Assembly: GCF_032884065.1 (NCBI RefSeq)
Contig: NC_088880.1
Coordinates: 25,916,715-25,980,714 of the forward strand
Reading direction: 5' to 3'
From: Artemia franciscana
Lineage: Eukaryota > Arthropoda > Branchiopoda > Anostraca > Artemiidae
DNA length: 64,000 nt
This document shows, one piece after another, positions 386-55,210 of this stretch (position 1 is the stretch's first letter; every line of letters starts with the position of its first letter). The notes beneath the pieces were generated by a model. It had not been told where the DNA came from and made no database searches. It saw nothing but the letters and a program-made list of their open reading frames with translations. The position numbers were made by a program, and so were the translations under genes.

Positions 386-3300
386 TGTTGCTGTTAGACC
401 TAAAAAGTACTAATATTTTTAATCATTCAAATTACATCATAACAATGATAATAAAAAGACGAAGATAACACTCAAAGAGGATTGCTCCAGAATCAAATAC
501 TTCACGGTAAGGAAAAGAGGGTGTGGGCTTACAAAATGAGTTTTAAGCCAAAATTATTTAATCTAGCCCAAAAAGAAGAGTGTTCTTCAATTGGGGAGAA
601 ATTTACCCCTTATCCTGCCTAATATGGAACTAAATATAAGTAATGGGAACTCTTATCTATCTAGTATCTTATCTTCCTGCCATTTTTTTGTGATAATTAA
701 CATCTATTTAAAGCTAGGTTAGCTTCATTCAAGCTAGGTCAAGTTTCATTAACCATACTAAGATATCTAACTAACGCGTGCACGCCCAAGACTTAACCAT
801 ACTCTCATGGTACAATGAGCGTATGACAACAAATTAAAAAAAAATTAATTTTCCTTGTTATTAGACTGTTTATTATTTATTTCTTTTTTGCGTAGTTTTA
901 TTGTTTGTTTCTTAAATTTATTGTTTTTTATTGTTTTTGTTTCCTAAGTTTAATTTTAAGCCTTTTTTAAAGGTTTTTTTCTTACTTTCCCTCCTGAATA
1001 CTTGATAAGCTGATTTAAAAACAAGAAATGACTACAACTGAATTGCTATTATTTTGTGTCTAAGAAAATCAGTTACGATTTTATGGTAATTTAATTGAAC
1101 AAAGAATCAGCTTTTGATGATGCAGTTTTTTATTGAATTTGTTGTATTTCTGCAATCAATTGATTTCAGCTTAAAATAATACCAAAACAAAGCACTGTTA
1201 TTATAATTAAATTCACTACCAGTTTTGAGGAAGTGCTGTAGCCAAATAGGTGGGGTATTAGCCATTCCCAGCAAAAACATATTCGAAGACCTTTCCTAAA
1301 TTCAAAAGAATTGAATAGGACCCCCCTTCAAACAGCGCTGAAAATTTTCAACCTTTTTAGTCTTCAGAATGTCTTTTACAGCCTTTTGGATGTTTATAAA
1401 GTCCAAAATGATGGACAATTATTTTTGTCACATCAAAAGGGCTCTAGAACTTTTAATTTCTGGTGAAATGAGCCCTCTCTCGATATTTTAGAGTCATTGG
1501 TCGGATTTTTTCTTTGAATTAAAAAATTATAAACAATATTCTGTGACTACGGGCTAACCCTACTCAGTGACAGGAGTTACGAAATGGTAACTAGAAGAAA
1601 TGTCAAATATCGACGGTAAAATATTAGAGCAGCTGTGATTGCAGAGGGTAAAATACTTGAAGTTCATTGTAGTTCAACCCCAAACGCATTCCTCTCTTCC
1701 CTACACCCTCAACGACCAGTTATAAACTGCCTGAATAAAGCGACCTATTACTTCTTAAACTGTTTCTCCTCCAAGTATGAAACAGGACATTTTTCAAAAA
1801 TAGGTACTCGTCCCGAAGGGTATTCTAAGTTGGTCCCCTGCAAAATAACTCCTCTATATCTTCTATCATAATTTCAATGCGAGTTCAGGAGAAATTCCGG
1901 AGGGATAAAGCCAGATGTAAGTTTCCCTCCAATGTTTATTTTTCGTCTTCCCTTTTTCATAACAGAAACATTTCGTTCCAGGGATGGTTTTAAGGTGATT
2001 TGGAAGTTTGATACAAAATCAAACAAAAAGAAAGAATCATATCCAAGCATGGGGAAAGCAGGGGACTTAGTAGAGAGGTTTTTACAGCTATGATCGCGAT
2101 CTTAAAAAGACTAGAAAGGAATTCTTTATAGAAGTATGGAATCTATTTAAAGCACTTTTAATATAAGGCGTAATGTTTGTTTATGACTTTGAACACAGTG
2201 ATTAGCTGTTTTGTTTTATCTAAATATTTATTTTAACAAGGATAATCTGTTTATTTGAATTAGCCAAAGCATTTCACACTTTCAATAATTGTATGCACAG
2301 GGATGAATAAGCCATGCATGGTACTGCACAGTGGAGCTGCACTATGCATGGCACACCCTCAAGTGGTGTTTTCAAGATTTACACCAGGTGGTGAGGAGCG
2401 GGTCACCTCTCGCAATCACCGAAAAACTGTTAAAAAGTATTAAGGCTTCCATATCATAATAATTTTTTAGTTCATATTATAACTGTTTATTTTCAAAACA
2501 CATTACACCCAAAAAGGCCAGACAACCCTCAAAAAAATCTTCCATCAATAAACCTGTTTTGAGCTGTTAGGAAATACATTTTTTTTTTTAAATTTAATGA
2601 ATCGGTTAATAATGTTGAGACGGCTACATGCTAGTGAGGTCGTGAACTCTTTTACCCACTCAATCTACATTTCACTAGCAGCTACGTGTAATAGGTGTAA
2701 TGAGATGTTCGTTTCGAGATGTACACCATGTGGTGAGAAGTGGGCAACCCCTTAGTTAAAGCTGTGGAGCTAAATCACTCAGCAGCATCAGCTTAAGTTT
2801 CAATATTAAGGGTTAAGTTTTGGAAAAAGGTTTTGAGTCTTAACATCAAGTTCTAAGTGTTTTAATAGTCACCTAAGTTTTTTTTACGAGTTTCAGGAAC
2901 AACGGAACAAGACCGTTGTGCATAAGAACGTTGTCTCAAAACAAGAACGTTGTCTCAAATTTGGAGTGCCATATAATACTTATCGTACATGTAACATTAT
3001 TTTTTGAGCAGAAGGTAAAAAGAAGACTAGAATATTGCAAAGTATTCATATTGAACTATAGCTAATGTACATAAATAAAGGTCATAGTCTGTTGGCCTCT
3101 TAAGTATTAACATGAACGAATAGCTAAGATCCTTACTCTAAAGTAAGGATTTCAGCGCATAATCAAAATGAAAACCATACCTCAAATGTTTCAGTTCAAT
3201 GATTTTGTTCGCTTGAATTTCGACTGATTTTTCAACTTCTGCTTATTGCATTACTTGGCTTTGTTTACTCAGCTTATCTTATCGTAATATGTAGGATTGG

Positions 3301-5870: not shown

Positions 5871-8225
5871 AGTGCCGCGTTTGACTTTTTGTCAGTGCAG
5901 TGAAAATTATAAAAAAGCATGATGAAGTCGCGAAGAGAGCAGCCCAGTTTTTTCCAGGAAAACGACATTATGAAAGAAAATGAGATTCTATGGGAAAAAG
6001 CGAACTGTCCTTTATAGCAAAGAAGGTTGCTGTGAGTGACAATGACAACGACAATGTGTAGGAAATGATCAAACTAATACAGACTTGCCATGACGATAAA
6101 GTTACTCTGCCTACATTCCTTATTTTTGGTCTAAAAGAAGTCCCCTCAATCCCAGGTGAAATTACAGCACATGTTACACGGAAGATTACGGCAATGTGCA
6201 ATAAATTGGTCATTTTGATGGAACATAACTTCTCGAAAAGCCTACAAATTACGAAAACGAACAGTCTGATGTCTGAACATGTCTGAACAGTCTGAGTTTG
6301 TACCCACCTTCAAGCTTTTAGGTTAAGTTCTTAAAAAAAGTAGCCTCTCAAAGGGTTATCGTCGGCGGAGATTTTAACGTAGATCTAAGAAACGCGATGT
6401 CTCCCTGGTAGCAACTCTTTTGGGGCTGTGTTCCTTCCGACTGTTGTGCCTGGCCTAAAAGTGATAAATTTTCATATATTGGGCTGTTATCCTCAACCTC
6501 TAACATAGAACATGTTGTTGTTTTGTTCAGTAGTCACTAGGTCAAAGTTACAAAAAAGGATTCTATTCGGACCCCCTTCCCATCTCTACTTGCTTTCTAT
6601 CATCCCTGCCTATGGCTGAAAATAAAGAATCGCATTGGTTTTTATACTGAGATTGGAAAAATGTATCGAGAGAGACTTTCTGTAGAGTCTGTGAAGAGAC
6701 ACTGAGCAAAATCAAAGTGCTTTTCAATCTTTTATGCGATCATGCTGTTGTGCCTCAAATTGAAAAGAATACCTCAATTGACCTCACATCCTACTTGGCA
6801 CAAATAAATTCCGGGCTGAAACTTGCTCAAATAAGAGCTGTTCCTCTTCGATGTGTTCGTAAAAAGTCTCAGGTCGAAGACTGGTCAAAAAACGGAGCTC
6901 TAGTAAATGAGCGTAATTCTGCTAAGCTCTAGCTTTCGATTTAAAATGATTATGGTCGCCCGTGAGATGGCTTAGTAAATGACCTGAGGCTCCATACGAA
7001 ACAAAAATGTGATCGGTGTTGTTAAATACCACTCCAAACTCTGGAAGTAGAATAAGCCTGCAAAAGCCAACAGTACCAGTGTGACTGAAAAAAAAGTGGG
7101 AAGAATATTTCGAGAGCGAGTTTACGGTACCCGACAGAAGCAAAGAGGTGCTTAATGAAAAACGACTACACCTTGTTCTTTCAAATAAGACGAAATCTTT
7201 ACTATTTGTGTCGCCAAGTGCTGTTCACTCTTTGATTCTAAAATTAAGAGACGAAATCTTCTTCTGGTGTTGATTTTATTTCAGCAAAGTACCTGTAACT
7301 TGCAGTTCCTTTAATCGAGCAACATATAGCTCTAATGTTTCACATGATCCTGGTCCACGGTGTAATCCCAATGCAATTTTGAATCGGACGAATAAATCCC
7401 GACCTTAAAAAGGGCAAGAAAGACGCTTCCATGTACAGCCCTTATCGTCCCCTTTACCGTCTCGTGTACTATGTTTAAGCTCTTCAAGTCATTTACGATA
7501 AAAGACATTGAAGTAAAATGTTCCACCCCATCTCGCCAGCATGGGTCCCAGCGAGGCTTAAGTAGAGATCACGCTTTCTTTCTAGTTGTAAATGTGCTAA
7601 AGGATATTGAGGACGAAATGATTTCTTGATTCTATGTGCCCTTGATGTTGCAAAGCCTTTTACTCGGATATGTTTGACCAGGTTTCACGTGAGGCCCATA
7701 TGAAAAGTGCAAATATCGTGGAAATTATTTGTATAAGATATATGTATAGAAATCTGAAAGTTAAAATTAACGATGGTAGTCTGCTATTTCTGAGCTTGTA
7801 ATTTCTACGCCAAGGAGCTCAGACTTCTCCAGCTTTGTTCAATAATTGTGTTGCTGGTGCTCAGTATAAACTGAACTATACATTTATCTTCAAAGGAGTT
7901 GATCTCTCAAAAATTACGTTTGTGGATGACTTACTGAACCCTTCCTGCACTTTCCAAGGATGCTCTTCGACTTTTGAGCTTTTCCAAGAAGAGTATAAGC
8001 ACACTGGTTTGAGGTTTATTACTTATAAAACAGTTCTTCTGCCATTTAACTATAAAGGATATCAAAGTTTATTAAGTCTATCTGGCCTTGAAGATCCTTC
8101 TGATAGCATCTTTGCTTATCTGGGCATGCCCATTGGAGCAAATCTGAAAGAAACTATTTCGTATAGCACAACATTTCGTATAGCACAACTATTTCGTATT
8201 TATTTCGTAGAATTTATTTTCTGAA
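5870..8225 (+). pseudogene. Decayed LINE, copy A (ORF1 end, endonuclease, reverse transcriptase)
   Basis: Conceptual translation, with stops and frame changes, shows LINE protein pieces in the expected order. An ORF1-like stretch lies at about 6065-6290. An endonuclease motif (VIVGGDFN) is near 6355, the reverse-transcriptase entry region (SPYRP) near 7440, and a catalytic-region match near 7910 where the usual FADD reads FVDD. PIGANLKET follows near 8135. The element is dead. The same LINE is present in copy B at 17390-18960, and a related 3' end lies on the minus strand at 57852-58500. The clade (CR1/Jockey-like) cannot be fixed by eye. Confidence 0.75.
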
Positions 8226-10922: not shown

Positions 10923-11537
10923 ATGGCAGAAGAAACAGCCGAGGAATCAAATCGTGCGAGAAATTTTAGTATAAATCCTACAATGGCAGAAGAAACAGCC
11001 GAGGAAGCGGCTCAAAGAGATAATGCCAAAAGGATTGCGGCTAAAAGAGAAAGTAACAAAAGAAAGCGTGCCGAGGAATCACAAGAACAACGTGAAAACA
11101 GGCTTGCGGCTCAAAGAGAAATTACCAAAAGAAATCGTGCCGAAGAATCACAAGAGCAACGTGAAAACAGGCTTGCGGCTCAAAGGGAACTTACAAAAAG
11201 AAAGCGTGCCGAGGAATCACAAGAGCAACGTGAAAACAGGCTTGCGGCTCAAAGAGAAATTACCGAAAAAAATCATGCCGAGGAATCACAAAAACAACGT
11301 GAAAACAGGCTCGCGGCTCAAAGAGATAATGCCAAAAGAAAGCGTGCCGAGGAATCACAAGAACAACGTGAAAACAGGCTTGAGGCTCAAAGAGATATTG
11401 CCAAAAGAAAGCGTGCCGAGGAATCACAAGAGCAACCTGAAAATTATCGCCTGGCATTCAGGTACAGCCCAGTCGATGATTATAGCTTGAGTAGATGGGT
11501 TCAAATCGGGACTATGTCTAAAATTTGTCCCTATTGA
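10923..11537 (+). CDS. Helitron N-terminal frame with 23-residue basic repeats
   Basis: This open frame of 204 codons begins in a short duplicated leader: ATG at 10923 and again in the same context at 10983. It then carries about six copies of a 69-base (23-residue) unit of the form RAEESQEQRENRLAAQRE plus a KR-rich end. Such Arg/Glu/Gln-rich repeats are typical of the N-terminal region of arthropod Helitron RepHel proteins. The rest of RepHel follows directly in another frame at 11544. Homogeneous repeats alternating basic clusters with a heptad-like EQRENRLAA suggest a helical, possibly DNA-binding array. That function is inferred. Confidence 0.75.
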   Translation: MAEETAEESNRARNFSINPTMAEETAEEAAQRDNAKRIAAKRESNKRKRAEESQEQRENRLAAQREITKRNRAEESQEQRENRLAAQRELTKRKRAEESQEQRENRLAAQREITEKNHAEESQKQRENRLAAQRDNAKRKRAEESQEQRENRLEAQRDIAKRKRAEESQEQPENYRLAFRYSPVDDYSLSRWVQIGTMSKICPY

Positions 11538-11543
11538 GAGGCC

Positions 11544-13109
11544 ATGAAATTTAATGGTGAAACAATTGGAATGTGTTGCGCCTCAGGAAAAGTTAAACTT
11601 CCTCAACTGGCTGCACCACCAGAGCCATTGAAGACTTTGCTTACTGGACCTACCGCAGAATCTAAGCGTTTTTTATTAAACATCAGAAAATATAACTCAT
11701 GTTTCCAAATGACGTCGTTTGGTGCCCAAATCGAAAATGAAGATCAATTTATGCCTACTTTCAAAGTAAAAGGGCAAATTTATCATAAATTTTTACAACT
11801 GCACTTCATCAGTGATAGCAACTCTGAATTGAATGCACGTTACGAAATTTCTCCCGACGTTGAAAGGACTATCGTTTCCCAATTGGGACATCTTTTCCAC
11901 GAAAATAATGATTTAGTGCGCCTATTCAAAACAGCAATCGATTTGATGCCTATTGATACGCATAAAATTGTTATTTCCGCTGACAAAACGCCTACTGGCG
12001 AACATGTGCGTATATACAATGTTCAAACTATCGACGAAGTGGCAATCGTTATGGTCCTGATCAGTTTTCACCTCGAGATATTATTCTTCATAAGCGAAAT
12101 GCTCAGTTGGTAAGAATTGCTGAAACTCATCGATGCTACGGTACCCTACAATATCCTATAATTTTTTGGGATGGAGCCGATGGCTATCACTTTAATAATA
12201 AATTGATAGATCCATCCAGTAACAAACAAACGGATAAGAAATACAGCGCAATGAATTATAATTTATAGACTAATTCTGAATGAAAAATCACCATGCATGG
12301 CCAAAGGAAGGTGCACAAAGCAATATCCTCGACTTTTAGTACCCAACACAATTACTGGCAATGATGGTTACCCACTATATAGAAGAAGATCTATTGAAGA
12401 TGGCGATAAAACAGCAATAATAAAGAAGTATAACGGTACCACCATCGAAATAGATAACCAGCGGGTTGTTCCATATTCACATTTATTATCAAAAACATTT
12501 AATGCACACATAAACGTTGAATACTGTAAGTCCGTGAAGGCAATCAAATGCATATGTAAATACGTCAACAAACGCAGCGACATGGCAGGTTTTGGCTTGC
12601 AGTTCGAAATCAGTGATATCGACGAAATCGTAGAATATCAGGCTGGAAGATACATAAGCAGTAATGAAGCTGTTTGGCGAATTCTTTCATTTTCGATACA
12701 TGAACGAAGTCCAGCTGTTGTTCACTTAGCGGTACATTTACTGAATGGTCAACGTGTTTATTTTTCGGAATCCAACGTGCAACAAAGAGCCCTGAATCCA
12801 CCGGATACAATGTTAACTGCTTTCTTTTCTTTATGTCAAAATGATTCCTTTGCAAAAAAATTGCTGTATACTGAAGTGCCTTCGTATTACACGTGGTATT
12901 CTAAAAATAAATCATTTGAACGTCGAAAACAGGGTAGTTCAGTCGACGGCCAACCTACGATCTTCAAAGATACCACGATAGGAAGACTCTACACCATTCA
13001 CCCCAATCAACATGAATGCTTCTTTCTCCGCCTGCTTTTGGTGAATGTACCCGGTCCGACGTCCTTAGAGTATTTGAGAACAGTAAACGGTACTATACAT
13101 GACACTTAA
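11544..13109 (+). pseudogene. Helitron RepHel, Helitron-like N domain, nuclease core deleted
   Basis: 11544-12113 encodes the conserved pre-Rep region (for example GMCCASGKVKLPQLAAPPEP and ELNARYEIS). It continues out of frame with ALQYPIIFWDGADGYHFN-like sequence to about 12265. From 12289 the text resumes at SPCMAKGRCTKQYPRL and runs to 13109 with YICKYVNK-like residues (CICKYVNK here). In full-length relatives a few hundred residues, including the HUH (two-histidine) and tyrosine nuclease motifs, lie between these points. Here only about 25 bases do. A stop also follows 13109. This element could move only if another copy supplied the protein. Confidence 0.8.
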
Positions 13110-14911
13110 CGTAGTACATGCCAAGCTCTGAATTTATTAGAGAATGACCAACTCTGGGATAGCTGCATCAATTACGCGTGCGAAACGTCAACTCCAAGTC
13201 AAAGTCGTGCATTGTTTGGAATTTTACTGACAACTTGCTCTCCTTCAGCTCCTACAGAGTTATGGGAGAAATATAAATCGAAAATGGCCGAGGATATACT
13301 CCATCGAAAGCGGTTAGAGACGTCAGATATGGCATTTGATTTTACATCATAAATTTATAACTACTCTTAAGTTATTATTGAAGATTTGTGCGTATGTATG
13401 GCAAACAAACCTCTTCAGGATTTAGGAATGCCTTCACCTAATCGTAACGCTGCTCTTTCGACATGTGTAGAATTGGATCGTGAACAAAGTTACAACACGA
13501 GTGATCTATTGTCGTATGTAGAAAATAATATTTCCAAGTTAACGTCTGAGCAAAAAAACATTTATGATAAGATAATGCATTGTGTAGATAACAACGTTGG
13601 AGAAATCTTCTTTTTGGATGCGCCAGGAGGTACTGGTAAAACGTTTGTGATAAAATTGATTCTGGCATCAATTCAATCAAAAAATTACATAACGTTGGCA
13701 ATTGCGTCGTCAGGAATAGCCGCAACGTTACTGCCTCGTGGAAGAACTGCTCATTCCGCTTTGAAATTGCCTCTGAATTTGCATTCTACAGAAACTCCCA
13801 CGTGCAATATTTCCAAATCATCTGGAATGGGTAAAGTATTGCAGCAATCCAAACTTATTATTTGGGATGAGTGCACAATGGCACATACAAAATCGCTCGA
13901 GGCTCTGGGGCAATCATTGCGAGATTTGCAAGGAAATTTGAAACCCCTTGGCAGCACATTAATATTGCTTGCGGGAGATTTCAGGCAAACATTACCTATA
14001 ATACCTAGATCAACCCCTGCGGACGAAATGTATGCTTGCCTGAAAAATTCTAATTTATGGGCACACGTAAAGACATTAAAATTAACTATAAATATGCGTG
14101 TCCGATTGCAAAACGATGACTCTGGTGAAATATTTCCAGATCAATTCCTGGCAATAGGAACGGAAAGCTCCCAGTAGACTCAATTTCAGGACGTATACAA
14201 CTGCCTGCTGAATTCTGTAATTTAGTGACGTCCAAAAATGAATTGGTTGAAAAACTATTTCAGAATATTCTAACCAATTATAAAAATCATAAGTGGCTCA
14301 GTGAGCGAGCGATTTCGGCAGCAAAGAATAAAGACGTCCACAAAATCAACAATATTATTTTGACCAAGATTCGAGACCAGGAAGTAATTTACAAGTCAGT
14401 TGACACAGTTCTGGAATCAAATGAAGCGGTTAATTATCCATCTAAATTTTTAAATTCCCTGGATCTCCCAGGGTTTCCGCCACACGTGCTATAACTAAAA
14501 ATAGGCGTACCAAGAATACTGTTACGAAATATTAACCATCCAAAGCTTTGCAATGGCACGCAACTTGCCGTAAAAAAACAAAACAATGGAAAACGTAATA
14601 GAGGCAACAATCTTGACAAGGCCTTTTGAAGGTGAGGCTGTTCTTGTTCCTTGCATTCCCATGGTTCTAACGGATCTACCTAGACAATTTAAAAGATTGC
14701 AATTCCCAATTCGATTAGCATTTGCAATCACCATCAACAAAGCTCAAGGGTAATCATTAGAAAAATGCGGTATAGATCTTAATACGGATTGTTTTTCCCA
14801 TGGACATTTGTATGTTGGATTTTCAATGGTCGGTAAACCTGACAATCTATTTATATGCACAGACAATGGGACAGCGAAGAATGTTGTATATTCGCAAGTT
14901 TTACGTAGTTA
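13110..14911 (+). pseudogene. Helitron PIF1-like helicase domain, decayed
   Basis: The frame at 13386-14177 shows the Walker A motif (APGGTGKTF near 13620), Walker B (IIWDECTMAH near 13860), and the PIF1-like LLAGDFRQTLPI and INMRV segments. 14225-14494 continues in a new frame (FLNSLDLPGFPPHVL). The C-terminal part runs to 14911 (FAITINKAQG, FSHGHLYVGF, ICTDNGTAKN). At the arginine-finger motif the usual ACSRVG reads GFSMVG, so this helicase would fail even if read through. A stop follows the KAQG motif. The sequence order matches the usual RepHel C-terminus. Confidence 0.85.
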
Positions 14912-38289: not shown

Positions 38290-38680
38290 TTGATTGTACC
38301 TTGGATTAGTCTTTTACATGTAGTTTAGCTTTTAATCGTTAAATCGTTAACTGTACTTTAAATCGTCAGTCTCTCAGCGAATTTAGAAGATTTTATCTAG
38401 AACATTCTATTCGTAAGCTTTAAAATTGATTGGTCCTTTGCATGTAGTTTAGCTTCTAATCGCTAAATCCATAACTGAATTATAAATCATTAGGGTCTGT
38501 TAACAAATTTAGGAAGTCTTATATCAATATTCTCTGTAAGCTTTACATTTGAGTGATTTTCTTTGTATGTAGTTTAGCTTCTAATCGTTAAAACCTCTGT
38601 ACGAATTTATGAAATCTTATGCGAATATTCTGTTCTTAATCTTTGTGTTCGATTGCTCTTTTCCACGTAGATTAAAGATA
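38290..38680. repeat. Minisatellite, unit about 125 bases, three to four copies
   Basis: TGTAGTTTAGCTT.TAATCG starts at 38319, 38443 and 38568 (spacing 124 and 125). A fourth, partial unit may follow. Units abut and are diverged. It lies inside a DLGAP intron. Confidence 0.8.
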
Positions 38681-38928
38681 ATATTAACCAAGCTCTTACA
38701 ATCGCTATAAAAAAATTATAATACATTTTTAACAAGACCAAATGCGAGTCCACCAAGCCTGTCTTGGTTAGTAAAAGTAAAAGGTAAAGACGAAAGTAAA
38801 ACAGTTCAAAATGGGGATGAAACCTTTTTATTGACAATGAACAGATACAAAATTTAACTGAATATTTCGAACACATATACAGTGTTCATCATCAGCAGTA
38901 AAACTAAAAGACATCAATATAAACATCA

Positions 38929-39033
38929 GCAGCCAAGAAATCGACACCCAAGAGGGGACCGTCAGTCAAGAAAGCTCCCGCCAAGAAAGTGGCATCTAAA
39001 AAGTCAGTAGCTAATAAACCAGCTAAAAAGTAA
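38929..39033 (+). pseudogene. Captured C-terminal tail of a histone H1 gene
   Basis: Thirty-four codons and a TAA read AAKKSTPKRGPSVKKAPAKK followed by VASKKSVANKPAKK. The KKxPAKK and KKAPAKK composition is that of the lysine-rich H1 tail. The open frame ends exactly where H1 genes end, in -AKK. No globular domain is present, so this is only the gene's 3' tip. It is framed on both sides by the inverted repeat. After the stop there is a small hairpin (GCAGTAT, CAA, ATACTGC near 39053-39069) that does not match the canonical histone mRNA stem-loop. Chance similarity of lysine-rich text is possible, but a 34-codon match with a natural end is unlikely by accident. Confidence 0.7.
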
Positions 39034-39083
39034 TGTGTGCAATAAGTTATCCTGCAGTATCAAATACTGCATCATCAGCAGAG

Positions 39084-39134
39084 TTTTACTGCTGATGATG
39101 AACACTGTATATGTGTTCGAAATATCCAGTTAAA
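39084..39134 (+). ncRNA. Hammerhead-ribozyme-like core, right arm
   Basis: CTGATGA (39092-39098) is followed by a six-pair stem (GAACAC / GTGTTC) with a TGTATAT loop. GAAA (39119-39122) and TATC come next. TTTACTG before the core pairs with CAGTTAAA after it, with one bulged T. This is the order of a type I hammerhead with almost no helix III, as reported for Penelope-like elements. One extra base sits between CTGATGA and the stem, so activity is doubtful. The left arm carries the same motif on the minus strand at about 38853-38903. Confidence 0.45.
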
Positions 39135-39419
39135 TTTTGTATCTGTTCACTGTCAATAAAAAGGTTTCATCCCTATTTTGAACTGTTTTACTTTCGTCAT
39201 GGAAAGGCAGTGTTGTCTTCGAAGTTATCTAAAAGGTCAAGAATACTGCACTGGACTTATATTCTCTACCGGAGGAGCTGAACTCCTTTTTATGGCCTTT
39301 CAGTCAGATTTGGGGCCAGCCAACCTGCACTTTCGCAAAACTTTCCTGTTTACCTACCCAAGATTTTTTCAGGAATCCCATTTGAGCAGAGTAAAATCTG
39401 GCTGAGGCTTTGAGAGTCA

Positions 39420-39545: not shown

Positions 39546-40017
39546 ACTTTACTAACAAGAAAGTAGTATTTTTGTTGATAATGGCTGTTAAGTGAGCTGA
39601 ACTTCTCATGTTCTTGAGCGACGTGTTTTGATTGAATGCCAATTTTTTATTAATACAACAATACATCTTTTTTATTAGGATATATCATGAAATTTAAGTG
39701 TAATTTCCACCTTTTAAGGTTAAAGACTAAGGGGTTGAATTGTAATACATACTTAAATGGCCCGATTTTCGACAAGAACAGGCCCTTAGTCTTTTTTCTT
39801 TTTTTTTGGAAAGCACAAATGCACAAAAAAACGATTTTCCATTTTTTCCCGTTTCCTTTTTCTTTTCTTTTTTAGAGTATATTACCATTTCCATTTTAAC
39901 CAAAAAGGAGTATTTCCAACTACTCTAGGCTAGTAATAGTACCAATCAATCAATCTAGGCCAGGAAAGCCTAGGATAAGATGAAAAAAACCCAGCCTTTA
40001 AGAATTGTTCCCCTTAC

Positions 40018-41064
40018 CTTTAAGAATTTATGTCCTTCTGGAAAATCAGTAAATGCAGTAGATGCCTCAACATCCAAACTCTTCACCAAAATCTCTCCTG
40101 CTTGTCTTTTACTTTCAATTGACGTTCCGTCAACTTCAGAAGTTAGAGGAAGCGACTGTGTCTCTTGAGGTGGGAACAATTTCCTAACTGGTTTCACCGG
40201 GGATGTTCTTTTGACAGGTAATTGTTCACGGAATTCTGGTCTTAAATGTCTGAAGACAGGGGGCGTAGCACAGCCTTTCATAGAATTTTCCACTTTTTCT
40301 TCCTTAGTATCACTAACAGAACTGGATTTAACAGTGGATCTTTTTGGTGCTTTGACAGGGGTCAAATAATTTCTAGCCAAAGCTCCAGGTCCGTAAAGTC
40401 TTTCTATTCGTTGCTCGATAAAACTTTTCTTTCCAGTCGAATGGCTAGTATTTCCATTGTCAGTAACACTTACAGGGGTCACGAAAGGAACTTCTAAGGT
40501 CCTAAAATTCCCCTCTTTATGATCTATCCTATTTCTCATTCTACCTCTCTCAGGGATGTAAACTTCATTCACTCTAACTACGGGTATTTCAACACCAGCT
40601 TCATCGTTATTGTTATTTAAAAATGATGAAAAGAATGTCTGTCTTTCACTTCTTTCTTTTCTCAAATAACCTCTATCAACACTTTTGCTTCTCAGAGGCC
40701 CACTACATTTTGACGGAGGATGAGTTGGATTCCCTCTTGAAAATTTATTATTTAACTCCATAACAGCAACAGGACTAAGAAGGCCACCAAGAGTAGTTAA
40801 CGGAACGGAAGGTATTTCCCCAGGTCTGAGAGGACTACCATCCCTGCTTTTGTTTAACAGCAAAGGTAACCGATCTCTACTATTTTCCCGGGACCTTAGT
40901 TCTCTTCTGATATCAGAGTTATAACAAGTTAATTCCGAATATCCGTTGACTGAACAGGAGATGTTGACATATGAGAGAGGGCGTGACTTTTGAGATGTTT
41001 GATTAGAGCTCTCCATTAGAAAGTACAATAGATGATTGCCAAACGCATATGCGTGTTCTTTTAC
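40018..41064 (-). CDS. DLGAP: DLGAP/HURP homologue, large 5' exon
   Basis: The exon is open from an acceptor CTATTTTAG (41066-41065) to a donor AAGGTAAGG (40018/40017), 349 codons in phase 0. The first Met is at 41016-41014. The 16 codons before it are open, so the true start may lie in an earlier exon. Counted from that Met, the product is Ser/Arg/Pro-rich and largely disordered. It has a KSFIEQRIERLYGPGALARN motif near residue 200 and basic Pro-rich stretches after it, ending TDFPEGHKFLK, the first strand of the GKAP domain. With the three downstream exons it gives about 512 residues. HURP acts on spindle microtubules and DLGAP1-4 are postsynaptic scaffolds. Which role applies cannot be read from the sequence. 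Confidence 0.85.
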
Positions 41065-53968: not shown

Positions 53969-55210
53969 TCTATATATATAAAAATAAGTTGTCTGTCTGT
54001 CTGTCTGTGGATCAGGTGACGTCATGTTTCTGTGTCGGCTGACGTCATGAAATTAGTTGTCGTCATTTTTGCTTTGACGGTGACGTCATTAAAAATATTT
54101 AAGACATGCGTTCACGGAAAAATGTTTAATTGTAAAATGACTGAAGAACCTACAATGGCAACAGCCGAGGAAGCTGCTCAAAGAGTCTATGCCAAAAAAC
54201 TTGCTGCTGATAGAGAAAGTAAGAAAAGAAAGCGTGCCGAGGAATCACAAGAACAGCAAGAAAACAGGCTTGCAGCTGATAGAGAAAGTAAGAAAAGAAA
54301 GCGTGCCGAGGAATCACAAGAACAGCAAGAAAACAGGCTTGCGGCTAAAGAACGCAAAACCGCGCAGTTAGATGAAAATCCGCCTGGAAAGCGAGAGACA
54401 AAACATATCAAAACTGAAAATGATAGCGATGATGATTGGGTTTGGGATTTTGACTTGGATAAGGTCATCAATGCCTACCAGATTTAAGTTAAAAAACATA
54501 GGTTCGGCGATATGTACTTCATAGTGACGCTGAAAAATAAAGAAGAAAAAAAAACTGAAAAAATGTAAAAAACTAAAAAAATCTAAAAAGAAAAAACACT
54601 CAAAGATAAATTACAGACCGGGACACAAATGACGACCGACACAGAGGGAATATAAATGACGACCGGGAACCTCAAAGAAAAATTACAGACTGGGACACCC
54701 GGACACAAATCACAACCAGGAATATAAATGACGACCGGGACGCAGGGACACAACTACAACAGGGACGCCGGGGGCACAGGCGGGATATATAATTGACGAC
54801 TGAGACACAGGGATTGTTTGAATAGAAATTACAGACCGGGACACCGGGACACAAATGACGCCCGGGACACTGGAACACAGGGAATATAAATGACGACCGG
54901 GACACTCAAAGAGATATTACAAACTGGGACACCAGGACACAAATGACGACCGGGACACAGGGAATATAAATGCTATTTATATGCACAGACAATGGGACAG
55001 CGAAGAATGTTGTATATTCGCATGTTTTACGTAGTTAAAAATATATATTTATATCTATCTCTATTCACAGGTGGGACACAGGGACACAGCTACAATGGCG
55101 CGTAACTAATATGGCGCGTAACGACTTACGTGCGCGGGGGGGCTTGGGGGGCGCAAAGCGCCCCACCAACTAGGTGTTGGGGTGGCGCGAAGCGCCACCC
55201 CAACAGCTAG
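53969..55210 (+). mobile_element. Short Helitron 1 of a tandem trio
   Basis: The first 23 bases (53969-53991) are identical to the start of the Helitron at 10712: TC, a TA run, then AAAATAAGTTG. The end is a strong hairpin (GGGGTGGCGC, GAA, GCGCCACCCC) followed by AACAGCTAG at 55210. Inside are three TGACGTCA sites (54017, 54040, 54081), a small intact frame (54137-54487), a GACCGGGACAC-type minisatellite and a RepHel C-terminal scrap near 54970-55040. An alternative earlier stop signal (ACCAACTAG near 55161) lies just before the last hairpin. It is non-autonomous. Confidence 0.85.
54137..54487 (+). CDS. Intact small Helitron protein, basic repeats plus acidic tail
   Basis: The frame encodes 116 residues from the ATG at 54137. 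The frame is open further upstream, but that part overlaps the promoter sites. A second ATG at 54155 has the same CCTACAATGGCA context as the Helitron at 10712. Two near-identical basic repeats (LAADRESKKRKRAEESQEQQ) are followed by a linker and an acidic, aromatic tail (NDSDDDWVWDFDLDKVINAY). The N-terminal half is RepHel-like, but the tail is not part of RepHel as known to me. A TATTTAAG box lies at 54096-54103. The frame is unbroken although the element has lost the enzyme. The role is unknown. Confidence 0.6.
   Translation: MTEEPTMATAEEAAQRVYAKKLAADRESKKRKRAEESQEQQENRLAADRESKKRKRAEESQEQQENRLAAKERKTAQLDENPPGKRETKHIKTENDSDDDWVWDFDLDKVINAYQI

Follow-up and report, generated by a model that had tools for sequence, protein, structure and literature searches.

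Penelope-like elements (PLEs) of lizards and rotifers are the closest described systems to the locus considered here, as far as the excerpts of the reports on which we draw extend. In common with the Artemia franciscana element, the Penelope/Poseidon-type PAc of Anolis combines GIY-YIG and reverse transcriptase domains with a hammerhead pseudo-LTR, and both target strands are cleaved and extended, with reverse transcription starting at two neighbouring internal sites, one on either side of the tail; in vitro, the start site was the same between strands (PMC11167929). PAc was studied in vitro, and the excerpt reports neither host cargo nor a strand difference, unlike the situation here, where one arm is tailed in 25/25 loci. 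Penelope insertions of the rotifer Adineta vaga likewise contain pseudo-LTRs in inverted arrangement, of which one may carry a tail, together with target-site duplications and host sequence or a host gene between the pseudo-LTRs; the captured gene, encoding an NRPS, retained its introns, and an antisense template for self-priming was put forward (PMC3846280). Capture of host sequence between pseudo-LTRs by a PLE is in itself known already from that work (PMC3846280, excerpt), but, unlike the A. vaga case, the cargo here consists of two histone 3′ ends with the same polarity and break point. How a PLE insertion is finished is unsettled, as the excerpted lizard study leaves the later steps to be validated (PMC11167929) and the rotifer study advanced the self-priming proposal (PMC3846280).

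Chimeras of LINE-1 with U6, U3, 5S and other RNAs are alike in that a host RNA is fused to the element, with U6 mostly in the sense orientation (98.3%) and often inside a single target-site duplication; they differ in belonging to another element class and in having no inverted second arm as a rule, and no histone mRNA chimera is named in the excerpt (PMC13174262). Limited literature searches on PLEs, Penelope, histone mRNA and template switching found, among the titles and abstract openings listed, no capture of histone mRNA by a PLE, which is a weak negative.

Structure of the insertion

The window, a stretch of 64,000 nucleotides of A. franciscana contig NC_088880.1, contains at 38791–39231 what looks like a single PLE insertion, judged by its arms, hammerhead-like cores, one tail and target duplication (Table 1). 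The inverted arms (38789–38905 and 39082–39198) are 117 nt long and 97% alike. The duplicated target covers 13 nt with one mismatch, 8 nt of it perfect, and surrounds both arms and the cargo. The preliminary description had placed the tail of an H1 gene exactly between the arms; the H1 sequence does lie between them, but the fit is not exact, as the left-arm element runs about 19 nt further (to about 38924) and 17 nt of filler lie on the right. Similar filler is found in other arm pairs of the genome. The filler's TACTGCA (39065–39071) is complementary to TGCAGTA in the H1 tail; a snap-back from the H1 tail as its source is possible but not preferred, since TACTGC occurs in the arm too. There is no ORF in the window insertion itself.

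Table 1. Parts of the insertion, in positions of the window
Feature	Position	Strand	Remarks
Left target-site duplication, TAAAAGGTAAAGA	38778–38790	.	13 nt, 1 mismatch to 39230–39242; last bases may be arm
Tail-less inverted pseudo-LTR arm of PLE	38791–38924	-	Element sequence past the repeated part is 38906–38924
Hammerhead-like core, left arm (CTGATGA, 6-bp stem II, GAAA)	38865–38895	-	Core pattern and fold
H1 3′ end, replication-dependent gene or mRNA	38925–39064	+	Clear homology from 38928
Junction filler, 17 nt	39065–39081	+	Reads as short arm copies: TACTGC, then inverted ATCATCAGCAG
Pseudo-LTR part of tail-bearing arm	39082–39198	+	
Hammerhead-like core, right arm	39092–39122	+	Core pattern and fold
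Tail	39199–39231	+	On right arm only; starts at the ATG that opens the PLE ORF in relatives
Right target-site duplication, TAAAAGGTCAAGA	39230–39242	.	

A tandem repeat with a unit of 124 nt (2.3 copies, 38309–38592) lies about 190 nt to the left of the insertion. On the minus strand at 39970–41064 there is an open frame of 364 residues that matches nothing in Pfam at E 0.01 and is a candidate host-gene exon.

Element family and hammerhead-like core

On the strength of its domain matches, the element family is assigned to the GIY-YIG (EN+) PLEs. A 3.5-kb locus (L059), chosen for its match to a cargo piece, contains pieces matching RVT_1 (3e-8, 34 bits) and GIY-YIG (5.6e-5, 23.8 bits), both above the Pfam cut-off, which lie between two pseudo-LTRs that match the arm (452–600 and 3089–3212); its coding region is split over several frames. 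The sequence from the ATG of the tail runs into an ORF in L039 and L047. Copies of the arm are dispersed over the genome: a 43-base piece of its core has 4,338 matches at up to three mismatches in the 1.27 Gb searched, and its reversed control has none.

The preliminary description had noted inverted arms with hammerhead-like cores, and this reading stands. The 31-base core pattern CTGATGATGAACAC...GTGTTCGAAA occurs exactly once per arm; with as many as three mismatches allowed, the window has no further copy, and 100 shuffles have none. In both arms stem II is bounded by the conserved CUGAUGA and GAAA of the minimal type I hammerhead core. The hammerheads of PLEs are described as minimal type I forms (PMC7761336, PMC11167929) without helix III, and those described for PLEs and terminons resemble the Artemia core in their CTGATGA...GAAA motif, in having almost no helix III and in their location in the pseudo-LTR (PMC7761336, excerpt). 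Unlike them, the predicted core here is without a match to the Rfam hammerhead models, either at gathering scores across the window or at E up to 10 in 38750–39280. Stem II is present in all three folds computed, although the lowest-energy folds are not hammerheads and inclusion of the filler leaves the core paired away. The core is therefore termed a putative ribozyme, an assignment that rests on the core motif and on the published PLE hammerheads. A retrozyme, which would have tandem canonical hammerheads, was considered and rejected, the arms at the locus being inverted rather than tandem and no canonical hammerhead match having been obtained.

Histone H1 cargo

The 34 codons and stop of an H1 gene that the preliminary description reported between the arms read as such at 38929–39033, and are followed by 31 nt of 3′ UTR; the codons are the C-terminal ones. 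Over 38928–39064 the cargo differs at 5/137 positions from each of three H1 genes of the same genome (L010, L013 and L014). Besides the window, H1 matches occur in at least 39 places at 91–96% identity (best 40 of 125 candidates scored), six of which (L010–L015) were looked at. The frame of the H1 genes looked at is mostly unbroken, and in them the match to the cargo stops at TATCAAA, after which most continue with the histone stem-loop CAGCCCTTTTCAGGGCT, with one base changed in L013. The comparison with the H1 genes of this species that the preliminary description had proposed thus finds the identity sought, with continuity into the 3′ flank breaking off one base before the stem-loop. The Histone3 model matches the H1 gene L014 at 1634–1680 (E 1.6e-6, below gathering score), this match starting 4 nt before the break point. 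Degraded H1 copies that contain stops are also present in the genome.

Histone H4 cargo and the shared break point

A second locus (L054, contig C12, 37576474–37576616) has the same layout with the 3′ end of an H4 gene as cargo, comprising 21 residues, the stop codon and 3′ UTR, and is flanked by a perfect target duplication of 13 nt. This cargo is 97% identical to the nearest H4 genes (best 40 of 830 candidates scored). It stops at CTACCCAA, where the H4 genes L056 and L057 continue with CGGCCTTTTTAAAGGCC and L058 has CCCTAC. Histone3 scores above its gathering score in 2/3 H4 genes searched (L056 and L058, not L057), whilst the stem is visible in all four source histone sequences (H1 L014 and H4 L056–L058). 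The H1 and H4 cargoes share one break point, which lies one base before the 6-bp stem and corresponds to position 4 of the Histone3 model, counted for H4 from the start of the Histone3 match. In both cargoes the histone has the same sense as the tail-bearing arm and is oriented with its 3′ end towards that arm's 5′ end.

On a scale of hairpin strength drawn from L059 600–2999, the H1 and H4 stem-loops are equalled by 0.8% and 0.5% of positions, respectively. A general rule that the PLE reverse transcriptase lands by hairpins was rejected, as it fits 1/5 of the sites at which PLE ORF sequence is the cargo (L039, L044, L047, L050 and L061). Only the landing site of L050 has a modest hairpin starting within 5 nt, and 11% of L059 600–2999 is as good or better; the landing sites of L044 and L050 end in A runs. 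Because hairpins are not the rule at PLE-ORF landing sites, the coincidence with the stem-loop rests on the two histone cases. Intermediates of histone mRNA decay, as described in the excerpt, end inside the stem with up to 7 nt trimmed (PMC10388802), whereas the cargo breaks here fall before it.

Survey of inverted arm pairs

The preliminary description had also suggested looking for the same arms around other cargo, and such pairs were found genome-wide within the gaps searched, the H4 tail among them. Inverted pairs were sought by exact 15-base ends at gaps of 51–271 only. Gaps of 51–109 gave 64 pairs, those listed holding mostly filler of arm fragments; gaps of 91–151 gave 22 forward and 23 reverse matches, one of which is the H4 pair; gaps of 151–211 gave 18 pairs, 15 of them aligned to L059; and gaps of 211–271 gave six. 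Cargo was assessed visually, on no more than 80 letters of each strand, for 3/18 pairs at gaps of 151–211, for most at 91–151, for 5/6 at 211–271 (the exception being L052) and for all but a few at 51–109.

At gaps of 151–211, the cargo besides H1 was PLE ORF in four pairs (L039, L044, L047 and L050), a 141-nt piece in one (L042) and longer, rearranged or only partly assigned pseudo-LTR sequence in nine. L061 supplies a fifth PLE-ORF cargo. Amongst the remaining loci, the L055 cargo is partly a dispersed repeat, whose query interval 75/82–145 recurs in at least 39 further places (best 40 of 210 candidates scored), and L062 holds a 52-nt piece. In L060 a dispersed repeat is joined to an 87-nt stretch of a histone locus that is not an mRNA end; in the two places looked at (L063 and L064) this stretch lies upstream of H4-like genes, antisense to them and beside a dispersed repeat. 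Rfam gave nothing above cut-offs in L055 or L060, and no tRNA genes were found in six loci.

Outside all of these counts, two further PLE-ORF cargoes were seen by eye (C3:45855248 and C13:44967760). L042 and C3645:116064–116273 are near-identical pairs with the same 141-nt cargo, perhaps through a segmental copy or as a re-mobilised cargo element. Opposed arm cores about 2 kb and about 1 kb apart (C1:6634299–6636339 and C1:38448773–38449842) may hold longer cargo.

A tail of about 33 nt is present on exactly one of the two outer arms in 25/25 loci; 20 of these (L039–L055 and L060–L062) had been chosen without regard to the tail, whilst five (L003, L004, L005, L007 and L008) came from a query containing it. 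The end of the tail-less arm falls, in all 25, no more than about 10 nt from a single inner site. With duplications scored as length minus 3 per mismatch, a score of at least 8 was reached in 21/25 pair loci vs 6/300 controls in which the left flank of one locus was paired with the right flank of another. No target duplication was found at L048, L053 or L060 (3/25 loci), and L052 scores 7.

The tail-arm sense is shared by both histones and by 4/5 of the aligned PLE-ORF cargoes (L044, L047, L050 and L061); in L039 the PLE sequence has the opposite sense, and this exception means that the polarity rule is not absolute. Arm identity within loci averages 0.968 (19 loci) vs 0.947 between loci, and the partner is the closest sequence for 13/38 arms, a comparison that decides between no models.

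A model for the capture of histone mRNA

The arms, the asymmetry of the tail, the target duplication, the H1 and H4 cargoes with their identical break point and the sense polarity can all be read directly from the DNA. On this evidence we consider that the window locus is probably a non-autonomous single insertion of a GIY-YIG PLE that captured H1 mRNA, with a probability of roughly 0.78. This figure is no higher because the stem-loop argument rests on two loci and because the histone-linked L060 does not fit. The proposal in the preliminary description that host 3′ sequence was captured by template switching agrees with the matching H1 genes, the occurrence of the arms with other cargo including H4, the orientation and the single target duplication; the jump of the reverse transcriptase on RNA at the H1 locus is what we infer from these.

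Two-sided priming, an RNA jump and the joining of cDNAs would produce such a structure as follows. A PLE ribonucleoprotein would cut both target strands 8–13 nt apart, and each 3′ end would prime reverse transcription on PLE RNA. Use of the outer start site on one end would keep the tail and use of the inner site on the other would omit it, such that the two primed cDNAs would become two arms pointing away from each other. The tail-arm cDNA, on reaching the 5′ end of the pseudo-LTR, would switch to H1 mRNA one base before the stem-loop and copy about 140 nt, after which a head-to-head junction of the two cDNAs would form, with short templated filler between them. An RNA cargo could have been copied by the tail-arm cDNA only, because the other would give the opposite strand; the order would therefore be tail arm, histone mRNA and then joining with the tail-less arm.

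A more specific combination can be proposed tentatively, although as a whole it remains doubtful. The outer start would be fixed to one cut strand and the inner start to the other, and the outer-start cDNA would switch preferentially at the stem-loop base of histone mRNAs; PLEs might insert while these mRNAs are being trimmed as S phase ends, or the stem-loop and its bound proteins might place the enzyme there.

Alternative explanations

The best-surviving rival, which we nevertheless regard as unlikely, is capture at the DNA level, in which a piece of a histone gene served as filler when the cDNA ends were joined, without a jump to RNA. Arms are commonly separated by short filler, and the antisense piece from upstream of H4-like genes in L060 would be in keeping with this route; moreover, the H1 genes are mostly without frame breaks, so splicing cannot mark an RNA origin. 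However, the breaks at two separate loci fall on an identical base with respect to the stem-loop, and the polarity is the same, which is unexpected of random DNA ends. The identical break point of H1 and H4 would thus argue for RNA over DNA capture, on two cases.

Slightly less probable still is that the second arm formed when a single cDNA folded back or primed itself, a route suggested for Penelope copies that lie head to head in rotifers (PMC3846280, excerpt). Palindromic filler is frequent and arms are somewhat more alike within than between loci, as this would predict, but fold-back past the cargo should duplicate it, whereas H1 and H4 are single. The constant inner end of the tail-less arm in 25/25 loci and the duplication in 21/25 also speak against fold-back.

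Capture of RNA by ligation, in which PLE RNA would have acquired a cleaved histone mRNA ahead of reverse transcription, has a published precedent as one of two routes to U6/LINE-1 chimeras (PMC13174262, excerpt), yet appears improbable here. What is present of the PLE starts at TTTTACTG or close to it, on the upstream side of the hammerhead, and the H1 junction is interrupted by 17 nt of filler. A 5′-OH left by hammerhead cleavage is usable by RNA ligase and would suit this route, but the start of the PLE part does not coincide with the cleavage point in the arm, which we take to be UAUC/CAGU. Finally, the notion that two solo arms, or two element ends as the preliminary description had it, inserted independently and by chance around a resident H1 pseudogene can draw on the degraded H1 copies in the genome but merits almost no credence, since arms and cargo lie together within one target duplication and H4 is found in the same layout.

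Implications for PLE insertion

Capture of H1 mRNA by a PLE, as preferred here, would bear on how these elements insert. Because both the polarity and the 3′ end of a histone mRNA are known, histone cargo acts as a strand marker in natural insertions, and the two histone cases, as judged from their sequences, favour a template in the sense orientation and separate priming of the two ends. The tail pattern appears to join the one-arm tail of the rotifer elements to the two start sites of the lizard element and to go beyond the absence of a strand difference in the excerpted lizard data (PMC3846280, PMC11167929). That the arms differ each time in Artemia, when PAc showed no such strand difference in vitro, counts against the model. 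Should a break at the base of the stem-loop recur, PLE activity would be tied to histone mRNA and perhaps to S phase. If both the fixed division between strands and the preference for histone mRNA are true, histone cargo would preserve, in natural insertions, the cell-cycle phase and the strand polarity with which PLEs insert.

Other elements in the window

The window contains further candidate mobile sequences. A reverse transcriptase fragment at 7802–8221 (+; RVT_1 1.2e-5, below the Pfam cut-off) perhaps belongs to another retroelement. A PIF1 helicase piece (12255–14174, +; 3.4e-60) reads as Helitron-like remains; upstream of it, at 11031–11443, a 69-nt coding repeat (RKRAEESQEQRENRLAAQRE-like) is present six times, and a similar repeat lies at 54200–54346.
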